22,652 bases of DNA, from the IMG/VR virus record IMGVR_UViG_3300032316_000768, positions 1-22,652 of that record, one strand, 5' to 3'. Shown here in pieces: positions 1,222-21,544 of this stretch. The notes under the pieces are model-generated. The model was given only the letters and a program-made list of their open reading frames with translations. It did no database searches and was not told the DNA's origin. This DNA is from a virus. The position numbers were made by a program, and so were the translations under genes. How positions within the stretch are numbered: the first letter of the stretch is position 1; every line of letters begins with the position of its first letter.

Positions 1222-1281
1222 GGTGTGGATCGCCAGACTCTAACCTCCGCATCCACTCTAACATTGAAAGGGAATGTCAGC

Positions 1282-1911
1282 ATGATTATATATTCAATCT
1301 ATAAAATTGTCAATATCTTAAATGGTAAAATTTATATCGGGTTCACTTCTAAAATCAAACCAATACGAAGGTGGTATGAGCATGTGAATTCCGCAAATAA
1401 TGGTTCAAATATACTGTTACATAGAGCTATTAGGAAATATGGAATAGATAATTTTATCTTTACGGTAATTTATCAATCACTTGATAGAGATTATACATTA
1501 CGTGTGATGGAACCAAAATTTATATCCGAGTATAAAACTTTCTCCAAAACGGGTTACAATTTAACTTCAGGTGGTGAAGGCACCTTTGGGTTTACAAAAG
1601 CACCATGGAATAAAGACAAAGTAGGCATATATTCTTTAGAAACATTAAAAAAGTTGTCAGAGAAAGCTAAGAAAAGAATTTCACCTAGGATTGGTACTAA
1701 ACATAGTACGGAAACCAAGATTAAAATGAGAGATATTGCACTACAAAGGATGTACCCACATCCAAGTGAAAAATGTGTAATAACACCCGCCGGACAATTT
1801 AACTCAATGAAGGCCGCCGCTGCATATTATGGCAAATCATCCTCTTGGATGACAAAACAACTAAGATTATACCCACTTGAATTTAAAATGGCAACTTATT
1901 CACTTTCTTAA
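1282..1911 (+). CDS. GIY-YIG homing endonuclease
   Basis: 209 aa from the ATG at 1282, which has AAAGGGAA about 9 nt upstream; an earlier in-frame start at 1225 lacks this. The N-terminus YSIYKIVN...GKIYIGFT is the GIY-YIG core, followed by R (RRWYEHV) and the catalytic Glu region (MEPKFISEY). The middle (residues ~125-160) has a NUMOD3-like KLSEKAKKRIS...KHSTETKIKM segment. The C-terminus ITPAGQFNSMKAAAAYYG is a NUMOD1/IENR1-type DNA-binding helix. It is free-standing, on the strand opposite its neighbours, and separates 33 from 59. Its last 29 nt overlap the 3' end of gp33 in antisense. It likely cuts a phage allele lacking the insertion to spread itself. Confidence 0.92.
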   Translation: MIIYSIYKIVNILNGKIYIGFTSKIKPIRRWYEHVNSANNGSNILLHRAIRKYGIDNFIFTVIYQSLDRDYTLRVMEPKFISEYKTFSKTGYNLTSGGEGTFGFTKAPWNKDKVGIYSLETLKKLSEKAKKRISPRIGTKHSTETKIKMRDIALQRMYPHPSEKCVITPAGQFNSMKAAAAYYGKSSSWMTKQLRLYPLEFKMATYSLS

Positions 1912-2931: not shown

Positions 2932-2969
2932 GAAAAGGTAATTTAATTCTGTTACGAGGATAAACTACC
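2901..2969 (-). repeat. Twin hairpins with different stems but the same loop
   Basis: Minus-strand hairpin A (2969..2937) has a 9-bp stem GGTAGTTTA/TAAATTACC. Hairpin B (2931..2901) has an 8-bp stem GGTTGGTT/AACCAACC. Their 15-nt loops, TCCTCGTAACAGAAT and TCCTTGTAACAGAAT, differ at one base. The stems differ in sequence but are both paired, while the loop is kept, which is the pattern of a selected RNA motif. They lie after the tag stop codon, where other tmRNAs carry pseudoknots. Confidence 0.75.
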
Positions 2970-2990
2970 AAAAACCCTAGCGACCCTTAA

Positions 2991-3023
2991 TTAGGCCGCA
3001 ATGCGGAACTTTTCATCGTTTGC
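2991..3023 (-). other. tmRNA proteolysis-tag reading frame
   Basis: Ten codons from resume codon GCA give ANDEKFRIAA, then TAA. The AND(E) start and the AA end are the hallmarks of ssrA tags (E. coli: ANDENYALAA). With the alanine carried by the tmRNA the full tag would be AANDEKFRIAA. The terminal IAA instead of the commoner LAA or VAA should still suit ClpX recognition, which reads the last residues; that is inference. Confidence 0.9.
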
Positions 3024-3132
3024 ATTTACTTTGTTTGCGTCTTCGACCGAGTTTCCCCAATCCTAAAGGCTTCTGCTTTGCCTAGTTGTCCACTTCTGTA
3101 CTCTTGACCCAATCGATCCTGTGTCAGGCCCA

Positions 3133-3291
3133 TCATAAAGATTTTATTTTGGAAACGATATCATAAACTTTAGAGTATACTTCGGTTATATCATCTAACT
3201 GATTTTCAGTTACTGATTTATTCTGTTCTAGTTGAACTAGATCCTTGGCCAAGTTTTCTTGTAACTCTTTTAGTTTATCTGTATCATCCAC
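3133..3291 (-). CDS. Small acidic coiled-coil-like protein encoded inside the tmRNA spacer
   Basis: 52 aa from a GTG at 3291..3289 with AAGGA 6 nt upstream. The ATG-like open frame reaches further up to 3363, but that part is the tmRNA acceptor piece read as protein (QCPPGPPQG) and is not credible coding. The product is charged and helix-forming: DDTDKLKELQENLAKDL, VQLEQNKSVTENQLDDI, YSKVYDIVSKIKSL. Leucine/valine spacing suits a short coiled coil. The frame begins 13 nt after the acceptor CCA and its TGA ends one base before the mature 5' end of the coding piece, so it fills the segment removed during two-piece tmRNA maturation. Function unknown. It might be incidental, but the start signals and composition argue for a gene. 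Confidence 0.6.
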   Translation of the reverse strand: MDDTDKLKELQENLAKDLVQLEQNKSVTENQLDDITEVYSKVYDIVSKIKSL

Positions 3292-3303
3292 ATAAAATCC
3301 TTG

Positions 3304-3367
3304 TGGTGGACCTGGCGGGCACTGCCCCCGCGTCTTGAATCCGTTTCTAGTTGCTTCATACAACCAT
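3304..3367 (-). ncRNA. ssrA: Permuted tmRNA, acceptor piece
   Basis: On the minus strand GACGCGGG leads into a 5-bp T stem (GCGGG/CCCGC) with a 7-nt loop, directly followed by the 3' acceptor strand CAGGTCC and ACCA, ending at 3304. The acceptor strand pairs with the 5' end of the coding piece 172 nt downstream, so the gene is circularly permuted as in the two-piece tmRNAs of alphaproteobacteria, some betaproteobacteria and cyanobacteria. GGTTGT near the 5' end can pair with ACAACT of the coding piece. The T loop is GGCAGTG rather than the usual TTCRANY. The 5' end is placed at the predicted transcription start. Confidence 0.88.
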
Positions 3368-3374
3368 AACCTCT

Positions 3375-3403
3375 ATTATAAAGGTTCTTTATTTAGTTGT
3401 CAA
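3375..3403 (-). promoter_or_regulatory. Perfect sigma70 consensus promoter of the tmRNA locus
   Basis: TTGACA (3403..3398), 17-nt spacer, TATAAT (3380..3375) on the minus strand: all 12 consensus bases. Predicted start is near 3367, immediately before the acceptor piece. The -35 box overlaps the stop codon of the nuclease gene. Expression would need only host RNA polymerase. Confidence 0.9.
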
Positions 3404-4059
3404 GAGTTTTTATGGTAAAAATCAATATGTTCCACTAATGTTCCGATGTGGTCATCAGTTTTCTCAATAAAAATGAGTGGACTTTCATTTTCCACAGCCA
3501 TAACAATCACAATCTGGTCAATGGAGACACCAACATGTTCCTCATACATTCCAGAATATGCAGTACATTGTGCAAAATAATCTTGAATGTCTTCCGATTT
3601 CTTAATCTTTTTCGATGTTTTAAAGTCAATAACCGATAGAACACCATCCCATTCAGCAATCAGGTCAACACGACCAGCCAGACCGATGCGTTCAGACCAG
3701 AGTGCTTGTTCTATGTAATGTATATTATTGATTTTTTGTATGTGTGGAATCAGTGTGCGAAACATCTCCACAGCATCAGGCATTTCACGAACCCAATCAA
3801 TCTTTTCATTCTTTAGATACCGTTCTGCAAGATCATGCACACGATTTCCACGACCGGTGGCAAGTTTTGAAATTCGGTTGGCTTCTACTTCACCAACACG
3901 ATTCCGCCATTCCATGATGGCTTGCTTTTTCATTGCACCAACAACGGTCGTGACCGATGGTAAACGTTTTCCGCTTGGTGAAGTGTAGTAGCGTTTGCCG
4001 TCAGAGTGTGTTTCCGATTTTAGGTCAGGAAGGACCATTGGTGAGCAATGTGTAAACAT
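3400..4059 (-). CDS. PD-(D/E)XK (RecB/Cas4-like) exonuclease
   Basis: 219 aa. Motifs in order: GRGNRVH with His75, Glu117 in YIEQALW, GRVDLIAEW with Asp132, and VIDFKTSKK with Asp145 and Lys147, which together form the RecB-family metal-ion nuclease site. C-terminal DYFAQCTAYSGMYEE resembles the QxxxY motif region of Cas4/AddB-type nucleases. Such phage enzymes are thought to act in recombination or host DNA breakdown. The gene starts 1 nt after the stop of the small zinc-knuckle-like gene. The first ~30 residues are not obviously conserved, so an internal start (Met8) is possible. Confidence 0.85.
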   Translation of the reverse strand: MFTHCSPMVLPDLKSETHSDGKRYYTSPSGKRLPSVTTVVGAMKKQAIMEWRNRVGEVEANRISKLATGRGNRVHDLAERYLKNEKIDWVREMPDAVEMFRTLIPHIQKINNIHYIEQALWSERIGLAGRVDLIAEWDGVLSVIDFKTSKKIKKSEDIQDYFAQCTAYSGMYEEHVGVSIDQIVIVMAVENESPLIFIEKTDDHIGTLVEHIDFYHKNS

Positions 4060-5099: not shown

Positions 5100-5381
5100 T
5101 TACCATTCCCTGCCCATTTTCGTTTTGTGTGATTTTGCTAACGTGTTTCCTGGGACAGACTCTTTAATACGTTGAATAACCCCTTTCTCGAATGCAGAAT
5201 CGTAAGACTTGGTTCCTGGAACGCTCATACGAGCCGCATCGGAGAACCTAGGCAAATCTTCCGAAGCAAAGTAACGCTCCAGATGTGTGTTATCTTCTTT
5301 GAATTTATCGTATTCGGATAGTTTAAGAATATGTTCCTCAACTTCACCTGTGTTTGAGTTTTTGAATGTGTAGGTAGGCAT
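5100..5381 (-). CDS. Conserved phage protein with FmdB-like N-terminus
   Basis: 93 aa. The start MPTYTFKNSNTGEVEEHILKLSEYDKF resembles the opening of FmdB-type zinc-ribbon proteins, but the cysteines are absent, so zinc binding is not expected. The tail (GVIQRIKESVPGNTLAK) is basic. Similar proteins recur in T4-like phages without assigned function. The ATG overlaps the oxygenase stop by one base (TAATG). Confidence 0.75.
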   Translation of the reverse strand: MPTYTFKNSNTGEVEEHILKLSEYDKFKEDNTHLERYFASEDLPRFSDAARMSVPGTKSYDSAFEKGVIQRIKESVPGNTLAKSHKTKMGREW

Positions 5382-20352: not shown

Positions 20353-20568
20353 TTACCGCTTATAATGAACCGGACGCTCATAACGACCATCAGAGTCTCG
20401 ATAAACAGAGACATAATGACCGTGCTTTGAACCATCATCAAAAGTATATGAGAAAGAAGAATCGTATGACAACGGAGGGAAGTTGAGTTCCCATGATTCC
20501 AATAATCCTTCTGATTCTAATGCAGAATTCAGAGTGGGAAAATAGTTTTGTTTTGAAACTTTATACAT
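20353..20568 (-). CDS. Small phage protein, function unknown
   Basis: 71 aa from the ATG at 20568 (GGAG 9 nt upstream), overlapping the upstream gene by 8 nt; an ATG at 20583 is the alternative. NFPPLSYDSSFSYTFDDGSKHGHYVSVYRDSDGRYERPVHY is aromatic and strand-rich. No family recognised. Confidence 0.65.
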   Translation of the reverse strand: MYKVSKQNYFPTLNSALESEGLLESWELNFPPLSYDSSFSYTFDDGSKHGHYVSVYRDSDGRYERPVHYKR

Positions 20569-20803
20569 TGAATAAATCTCCATACATTTCTTCATCAAAC
20601 GAATCAAAATCATTCCGAATCCACTCGATGGTGTATCCGTTCAGTGCATAGTTATCAGCCATAGCCTGGAGACGGCGGAGGGCTTGTTCAGCATTCAGAC
20701 CCATGCTTGCCATTAGGCTCAGGTTGCTCCAGTGAGCAAAGTTATTGGAGTCCTTATGTGCGGAGACTTGAATGAATTGTTTGGGTGTGTTTGTTTGTGT
20801 CAT
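20561..20803 (-). CDS. Small phage protein, apparently leaderless
   Basis: 80 aa. ANFAHWSNLSLMASMGLNAEQALRRLQAMADNYALNGYTIEW-like core: NNFAHWSNLSLMAS then EQALRRLQAMADNYA, a helical unit, then an acidic tail (NDFDSFDEEMYGDLF). Similar short proteins are seen in T4-like phages. The ATG is 7 nt from the TATAAT box and has no ribosome site, so the mRNA should carry at most about 2 nt of leader. Confidence 0.68.
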   Translation of the reverse strand: MTQTNTPKQFIQVSAHKDSNNFAHWSNLSLMASMGLNAEQALRRLQAMADNYALNGYTIEWIRNDFDSFDEEMYGDLFNV

Positions 20804-20810
20804 GTGTTGT

Positions 20811-20838
20811 ATTATACATGGATTGGAGTGGATGGCAA
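20811..20838 (-). promoter_or_regulatory. Host-type promoter placing +1 next to the start codon
   Basis: TTGCCA (20838..20833), 16-nt spacer, TATAAT (20816..20811), then ACAACAC and ATG. Confidence 0.78.
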
Positions 20839-20887
20839 TATAGAGAAAAAGTTCTCCATCCGTCCGGTCAAGTATTATGGGAGTGGT

Positions 20888-20990
20888 ACACTATAGGTAG
20901 TGTGTGGGTGCGTGATGAGACACTAGGGGTAGTGTGTATTGGGACGCTATAGGTAGTGTTGGAACGTGTGGAGGACGCTATAGGTAGTGC
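20888..20990. repeat. Four tandem hairpin-forming repeats
   Basis: Units at 20888-20903 (ACACTATAGGTAGTGT), 20920-20935 (centre GGGG), 20944-20959 (ACGCTATAGGTAGTGT) and 20975-20990 (ACGCTATAGGTAGTGC). Each is ACRCTA-N4-TAGTGY, a 5-6 bp inverted repeat; the centre is TAGG in three. Starts are spaced 32, 24 and 31 bp apart. Could be binding sites for a dimeric protein or RNA hairpins. Confidence 0.8.
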
Positions 20991-20992
20991 CG

Positions 20993-21022
20993 TGTGTCGC
21001 TGGATGTGTCGCAGTGTGTCGC
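20993..21022. repeat. Three direct repeats TGTGTCGC
   Basis: TGTGTCGC at 20993-21000, 21005-21012 and 21015-21022, directly following the hairpin repeats. Confidence 0.7.
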
Positions 21023-21114
21023 CGGTGTGAAGTTCTTATTTAGTCTTAGTTGCTGGCTGCCAACGCCTGAAAATTTCACAGAGTGTCTCAGAGGTGACAG
21101 CACGTTTCCGCACG

Positions 21115-21210
21115 TTCCAATGGGTTCCAGTGGGTTCCAGCACGGTTTGGAATGTTTTGCTCTGTGTGGGTCTCAGAATGTCTCAGAGTGGTGCTGGATG
21201 CCCATTGGAA
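21115..21210. other. Long foldback structure in the gene-free stretch
   Basis: TTCCAATGGG (21115-21124) pairs with CCCATTGGAA (21201-21210); TCCAGCAC (21136-21143) pairs with GTGCTGGA (21191-21198); CTCTG (21160-21164) pairs with CAGAG (21184-21188). The arms nest, separated by an 11-nt bulge that is a tandem copy of TGGGTTCCAG. This suggests a structured RNA. Confidence 0.65.
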
Positions 21211-21267
21211 AATCATCAGGCAGCCTCTACGTCCACCCCCAGTCTTGCTGTTCGAACCAATGTGTCT

Positions 21268-21296
21268 ATTGTACTCTAAAAAAGACCACCTGGCAA
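21268..21296 (-). promoter_or_regulatory. Host-type promoter facing the gene-free stretch
   Basis: TTGCCA (21296..21291), 17-nt spacer, TACAAT (21273..21268). No gene begins within 450 nt downstream. The -35 overlaps the terminator hairpin. Confidence 0.72.
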
Positions 21297-21308
21297 CCAC
21301 CAGGTGTC
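21278..21308 (-). terminator. Rho-independent terminator after the 73-aa gene
   Basis: GACACCTGG pairs with CCAGGTGGTC (9 bp with one bulged G, 6-nt loop TGGTTG), followed by TTTTTT. It lies 15 nt after the stop codon of the upstream gene. Confidence 0.82.
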
Positions 21309-21322
21309 TCATCTACGCAACA

Positions 21323-21544
21323 TCACTCTTCTTCGGAGAATCCTTCAATCAGCACTATCTGGTCCTCATAGTAGGACCTTTCCTCCTCCATGCACAGGTT
21401 ACCCTCGACCTCGAACACCAGGTCCGTGGCCATCTTTTCGTCACAACCAGTGGAGGTCATCACGAATTGAATAATGTCCTCGAATGCATCGCCATTGGAG
21501 ATGCACGATTCAATATCGATAATCAGGTCTTTAAATTTGCTCAT
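21323..21544 (-). CDS. Small acidic phage protein
   Basis: 73 aa: MSKFKDLIIDIESCIS, FEDIIQFVMTSTGCDEKMATDLVFEVEG, then EEERSYYEDQIVLIEGFSEEE. Helical and strongly acidic; possible DNA mimic or partner of the neighbouring ATPase, but that is speculation. Overlaps the upstream small gene by 14 nt. Confidence 0.68.
   Translation of the reverse strand: MSKFKDLIIDIESCISNGDAFEDIIQFVMTSTGCDEKMATDLVFEVEGNLCMEEERSYYEDQIVLIEGFSEEE

Follow-up and report, generated by a model that had tools for sequence, protein, structure and literature searches.

A conserved noncoding element of uncultivated T4-like phages as a candidate transcription-linked replication origin

What is the role of some 430 bp of phage DNA that hold no credible gene yet have a promoter of their own? 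The question is raised by positions 20839-21267 of a 22.7-kb phage fragment, an entire IMG/VR record (IMGVR_UViG_3300032316_000768; hereafter the window), which carries CobS-like, PhoH-like and other phage genes and comes from an uncultivated, T4-like (Kyanoviridae-related) phage from water. A sequence-only reading had proposed that this stretch, described as gene-free, promoter-bearing and rich in repeats, may act as a regulatory RNA, an RNA decoy or a replication origin primed by its own transcript. The absence of a credible gene was borne out, since, in the alignment described below, indels of 1-2 nt between close relatives shift the ORFs that cross it. The promoter was likewise recovered as a leftward-reading sigma70-type sequence, TTGCCA-17-TACAAT (21296-21268, minus strand), with TATAAT in most relatives; its -35 is overlapped by a terminator-like hairpin and T run (21287-21306, minus strand) that ends the upstream operon and is retained in relatives. 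The flanks are a 73-aa ORF upstream (21323-21544, minus strand) and, downstream, an early promoter retained in relatives (TTGCCA-16-TATAAT; 20811-20838, minus strand) followed by an 80-aa ORF (20561-20803, minus strand), both ORFs being without a family match.

Relatives were gathered by scans with three neighbouring proteins (25, 18 and 10 loci), and the alignment set comprised the window, L002, L003, L004, L006 and L007. In this alignment, a conserved segment A (from 21267 to ~20994, minus strand), predicted to be the transcribed noncoding part, is set apart from a variable segment B (20840-20993). The element is thus conserved in related phages, a point that the sequence-only reading had left to be checked; blastn of the region and of its motif 1 (see below) against GenBank phages returned nothing relevant. 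The first downstream ORFs fall into 20 clusters among 33 loci, and therefore it is the element, not a single gene, that is conserved. As read from the sequence, its parts follow one another in the order promoter-locked motif 1, ~200 nt, module 2, predicted DnaA boxes (in most relatives) and the next early promoter.

Motif 1, the near-invariant initial ~36 nt of the predicted transcript, lies at 21219-21256 (minus strand) and begins in the window with TTCGAACAGCAAGACTGGGGGTGGACG. In a set of 44 rows (43 distinct copies and L102), the -10 box lies 7-8 nt upstream of the motif in 36 and 10-11 nt upstream in six window-clade rows, the distances of L081 (12) and L102 (6) being mis-measured. Because this distance is fixed, motif 1 probably marks the transcript start, i.e., it would be the G-rich beginning of a transcript locked to its promoter. 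A -35 hexamer is present at 41 of the 44 promoters, including that of the window. Scanning viral contigs yielded 46 stretches with the general form of the motif and four with the window form. A model built from sequence only found motif 1 in 13 of 16 whole contigs, as a single copy in nine of the 13; among the other carriers, two window-clade contigs have two full copies and two have a weak second one. With this search as the positive control, the motif was not found in six cultured Kyanoviridae-type phages. To our knowledge, motif 1 has no known counterpart. Mimicry of a host RNA was considered and dropped, there being just two matches in genome contigs, i.e., L101 (probably chance) and L102 (CAIVQI010000123.1), a phage-like contig with two motif-1 copies that is binned in a Bacteroidetes MAG. 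The window clade also has an extra canonical motif 1 ~2-3 kb upstream (L002:5229-5265 and L004:4841-4877), which is accompanied by neither module 2 nor DnaA boxes.

Module 2, located downstream on the strand of motif 1, consists of CTAAG and, behind it, two or three GCG(A) repeats at intervals of 9-14 bp. Its parts in the window are an ACTAAG core (21045-21050, minus strand) and three GCGACA repeats (21022-21017, 21012-21007 and 21000-20995, minus strand) at spacings of 10 and 12. There are 29 distinct forms of module 2 among 50 motif rows, which include duplicates and rows with too little sequence, and the distance from motif 1 is mostly 170-210 nt where no gene is inserted between the two. 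A loose module-2 pattern has exactly one match in each of five motif-1 contigs of 166-180 kb, on the same strand and 185-965 nt downstream of motif 1, and no match in the sixth large contig, G003, which lacks the motif. In L080 and L012/L014, TTGCACTTTA-like repeats ~10 bp apart separate the GCG repeats from the boxes that follow.

Past module 2, most loci contain TTATNCACA repeats every 11-12 bp in the direction of the transcript, and segment B of relatives holds TTATCCACA repeats. The 50 motif rows comprise 27 distinct DnaA-box arrays with 100 sites, counts that do not represent independent events because the sequences are related. Tandem TTATNCACA pairs occur 18 times in 13 of 32 whole records, all 18 at the element (G021 has one on the opposite strand); a DnaA-box cluster at a single genome place is thus seen in relatives. 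A reversed control pattern is found 0 times in the 32 records, and six isolate genomes contain no tandem pair. The DnaA consensus leaves position 5 free, and it is at this position that 25 of the 43 one-mismatch sites differ, positions 2, 7 and 9 never varying; the sites were picked by similarity to TTATCCACA, a selection that favours no single position. Tandem DnaA boxes are missing at the motif-1 loci G006, G011, L080 and L083 and in the window, which has no DnaA-box cluster. In L083 (~5205-5250) and behind module 2 of L086, AGGTAA repeats 11-12 bp apart stand in place of DnaA boxes, and the T4 oriE repeats (L184:5403-5570) also hold AGGTAAT, at 24-nt spacing; both observations may be due to chance. 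The arrays of L090 and L088 match short stretches of other phages, and therefore DnaA-box arrays in phages may not be new per se.

The most surprising part of the analysis is what the window has instead. Compared with L003, it is 95.7% identical from its end to 20996 and 94.9% identical from 20839 to 20352, whereas segment B is unrelated, which looks like a cassette exchange: a ~155-bp DnaA cassette of a 95%-identical relative appears to have been replaced in the window by two palindrome pairs. These four 16-bp palindromes, at 20888, 20920, 20944 and 20975, are the strongest repeats of the stretch, and segment B holds a 12-mer four times (at most two mismatches) versus at most three copies in 60 shuffles. 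NrdR is a dATP/ATP-sensing repressor of ribonucleotide reductase. Its recognition site is described as two tandem palindromic boxes ~31-32 bp apart (PMC2892513), and the window has two such pairs of boxes, namely pair 1 (20888-20903 and 20920-20935, 32 bp) and pair 2 (20944-20959 and 20975-20990, 31 bp). Against the NrdR consensus, the four boxes score 14, 12, 13 and 12 of 16, with pair sums of 26 and 25; the best pair of the E. coli nrdA promoter reaches 24, and none of 400 random segments exceeds 22. The nrdA control pair fails a stricter 11+11 cut. Pairs of at least 12+12 are absent from 1,043,341 bp of the six large contigs. The palindromes thus match NrdR boxes and are putative sites for the host protein. 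As in the NrdR operators of ribonucleotide reductase operons (PMC2892513), they are tandem 16-bp palindromes, but they lie in an origin-like phage locus and not upstream of a reductase gene, the downstream ORF being the 80-aa frame without a family match (see above).

The exact NrdR-pair pattern recurs in 25 stretches from other viral contigs, and ACACTATAGGTAGTGT is a variant form of the box. L185-L209 represent a phage group, several of whose contigs measure 37-40 kb. These phages have a terminase gene, and their long intergenic region contains an NrdR-box-like pair, in many cases together with DnaA boxes; a terminase gene adjoins the pair in all three loci tested. At least two TTATNCACA lie within 900 bp in 14 of 23 distinct NrdR-pair loci, the remaining sequence of the 23 loci containing three boxes in total. 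From its sequence, this intergenic region is another candidate for an origin or a control region. By eye, the spacers between the boxes of this ~38-kb group, which is unrelated to the window phage, are unlike those of the window, which suggests that sites for one host protein may have been adopted separately. Since several carriers measure 37-40 kb, CTATAGGTAGTG was considered as a T7-class promoter, but this was rejected: each of 12 records has a single strong tandem pair, and a search of 18 records, run without a positive control, detected no single-subunit RNA polymerase.

How can these parts be read together? Somewhat probably, the element is a T4-oriE-like replication origin that is linked to transcription and carries arrays of sites for host proteins. 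Of the three roles first proposed, the origin is the best supported, the element being conserved and mostly single-copy, with an early promoter, GCGA repeats and the DnaA boxes of relatives, but the cumulative GC skew does not turn at the site and melting is not unusual: no DNA unwinding element was detected, and in five of five contigs, 33-80% of random regions equal or exceed the site in instability. Copies of motif 1 without the other parts and loci without DnaA boxes also count against an origin. Sequence supports the promoter, the transcript-start motif, module 2 and the arrays as predicted parts, together with their linkage, mostly single-copy occurrence and array exchange.

Known origins resemble the element in part. 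DnaA-dependent origins include bacterial oriC and those of ColE1-type plasmids, with which most relatives share one-strand tandem DnaA boxes at helical spacing; here, in contrast, there is neither a dnaA gene nor an easily melted element, and the window is without tandem boxes. T4 origins are described as having no common local sequence motif, with the role of the oriE repeats undefined (PMC3016281). The element shares with oriE evenly spaced direct repeats close to an early promoter of a T4-like phage (PMC3016281), but oriE lies inside gene 5 with visible repeats 24 nt apart, so that neither location nor repeat sequence is shared, and the 8.5 kb surrounding it contain no TTATNCACA, no module-2 pattern and one weak motif-1-like string. 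The oriF and oriG origins, which act via R-loops, resemble the element in the promoter-driven transcript into a control region and in the match to a UvsW-type helicase in these phage genomes; they differ in their MotA middle promoters (PMC3016281), where a full -35/-10 early promoter is present here.

From these parts we infer origin function, RNA priming and the binding of DnaA and NrdR. Host sigma70 RNA polymerase would begin early transcription at the promoter, and the predicted transcript would run from its fixed G-rich ~36-nt start through the CTAAG/GCGA-repeat module into an array of predicted host-protein sites, for DnaA in most relatives and for NrdR in the window. There, it might prime replication or open the DNA, as T4 origin R-loops do. 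Among nine records, gp59 is present in eight and a UvsW-type helicase match in nine, a broad family with matches in all 14 control genomes, too; a DnaA gene is present in none, and therefore host DnaA would be used. Tandem-bound DnaA could aid DNA opening or helicase recruitment, together with phage gp59/gp41-type proteins, and UvsW could later remove the R-loop. The NrdR boxes of the window would link the origin or its transcript to the host dATP/ATP sensor instead of DnaA. That the array is an exchangeable initiator-binding cassette, DnaA boxes having given way to NrdR boxes such that replication or the priming transcript is gated by this sensor, is a tentative and rather unlikely extension.

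Readings based on RNA fare worse. The inverted repeats and short duplications reported by the sequence-only reading are present, i.e., TTCCAATGGG (21115-21124) with CCCATTGGAA (21201-21210), TGGGTTCCAG at 21121 and 21131, and TGTCTCAGA at 21084 and 21179; in the alignment, the 21115/21201 inverted repeat is missing in L004 and L006. The full 429 nt fold better than shuffled sequence on both strands (z of -5.0 and -5.5), but the conserved part, 21257-21059, folds ordinarily (z of -0.41 and -0.39), and therefore the strong signal does not come from the conserved transcript. Fold energies were ordinary in 15 of 15 loci examined, the RNAalifold consensus has five pairs, none compensatory, and an Rfam search up to E = 5 gave no match for the stretch. 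With no covarying pair, unremarkable folds and no Rfam match, the proposal of a structured regulatory RNA was dropped, and that of an RNA decoy found no support. A small regulatory RNA from motif 1 would account for the promoter and the start-locked motif, and a terminator-like hairpin in L068 and L078 could stop it after ~75 nt; it is nonetheless highly improbable, given the same structural results and the linked downstream sites, which are predicted to be DNA-binding sites.

The main rival to an origin is a host-regulator-controlled promoter region, in which binding of DnaA or NrdR ahead of the next early promoter would tune phage early transcription, as at nrdAB promoters, without any replication start. 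In line with this, the arrays do lie upstream of that promoter. Moreover, the Salmonella nrdAB promoter combines DnaA with NrdR boxes (PMC2892513), and 14 of the 23 loci from the 38-kb phages do likewise. This reading is nevertheless fairly doubtful: the gene behind the promoter varies (see the 20 clusters above), the element is mostly single-copy, and the window boxes lie ~50-150 bp from the -35, beyond the usual repressor distance. Alternatively, phage genomes could act as DNA decoys that titrate either host DnaA, so that host initiation is blocked, or NrdR, so that the host reductase is de-repressed and dNTPs rise, with the transcript being incidental. Several strong sites per genome, the absence of a DnaA gene in nine of nine records and the trading, in the window, of sites for one nucleotide-sensing host regulator for those of another would fit, but titration, which is distinctly improbable, would leave unexplained both motif 1 and module 2 and why their order and strand are fixed.

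If the element is the origin that it resembles, its defined parts make a candidate origin recognisable across a large group of T4-like phages, and origin choice becomes directly testable. It would also suggest recruitment of host DnaA by lytic T4-like phages and, in one lineage, the swapping of DnaA sites for those of the host nucleotide-pool regulator NrdR. A literature search (titles and abstract openings, mainly open-access) returned no description of such a T4-like origin, DnaA recruitment or DnaA/NrdR swap.

Concerning the phages themselves, G008 has a T4-type DNA polymerase, helicase, head protein and rIIA, and its UvsW-type protein is closest to that of methylophage Melnitz (57%). The window further contains a homing endonuclease gene (1225-1911, plus strand) and a permuted (two-piece) tmRNA (2937-3407, minus strand) with the tag ANDEKFRIAA. 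A permuted tmRNA is also present in G001, with the tag ANDSEYRLAA, and another has been reported for the related methylophage Melnitz (PMC9004378).
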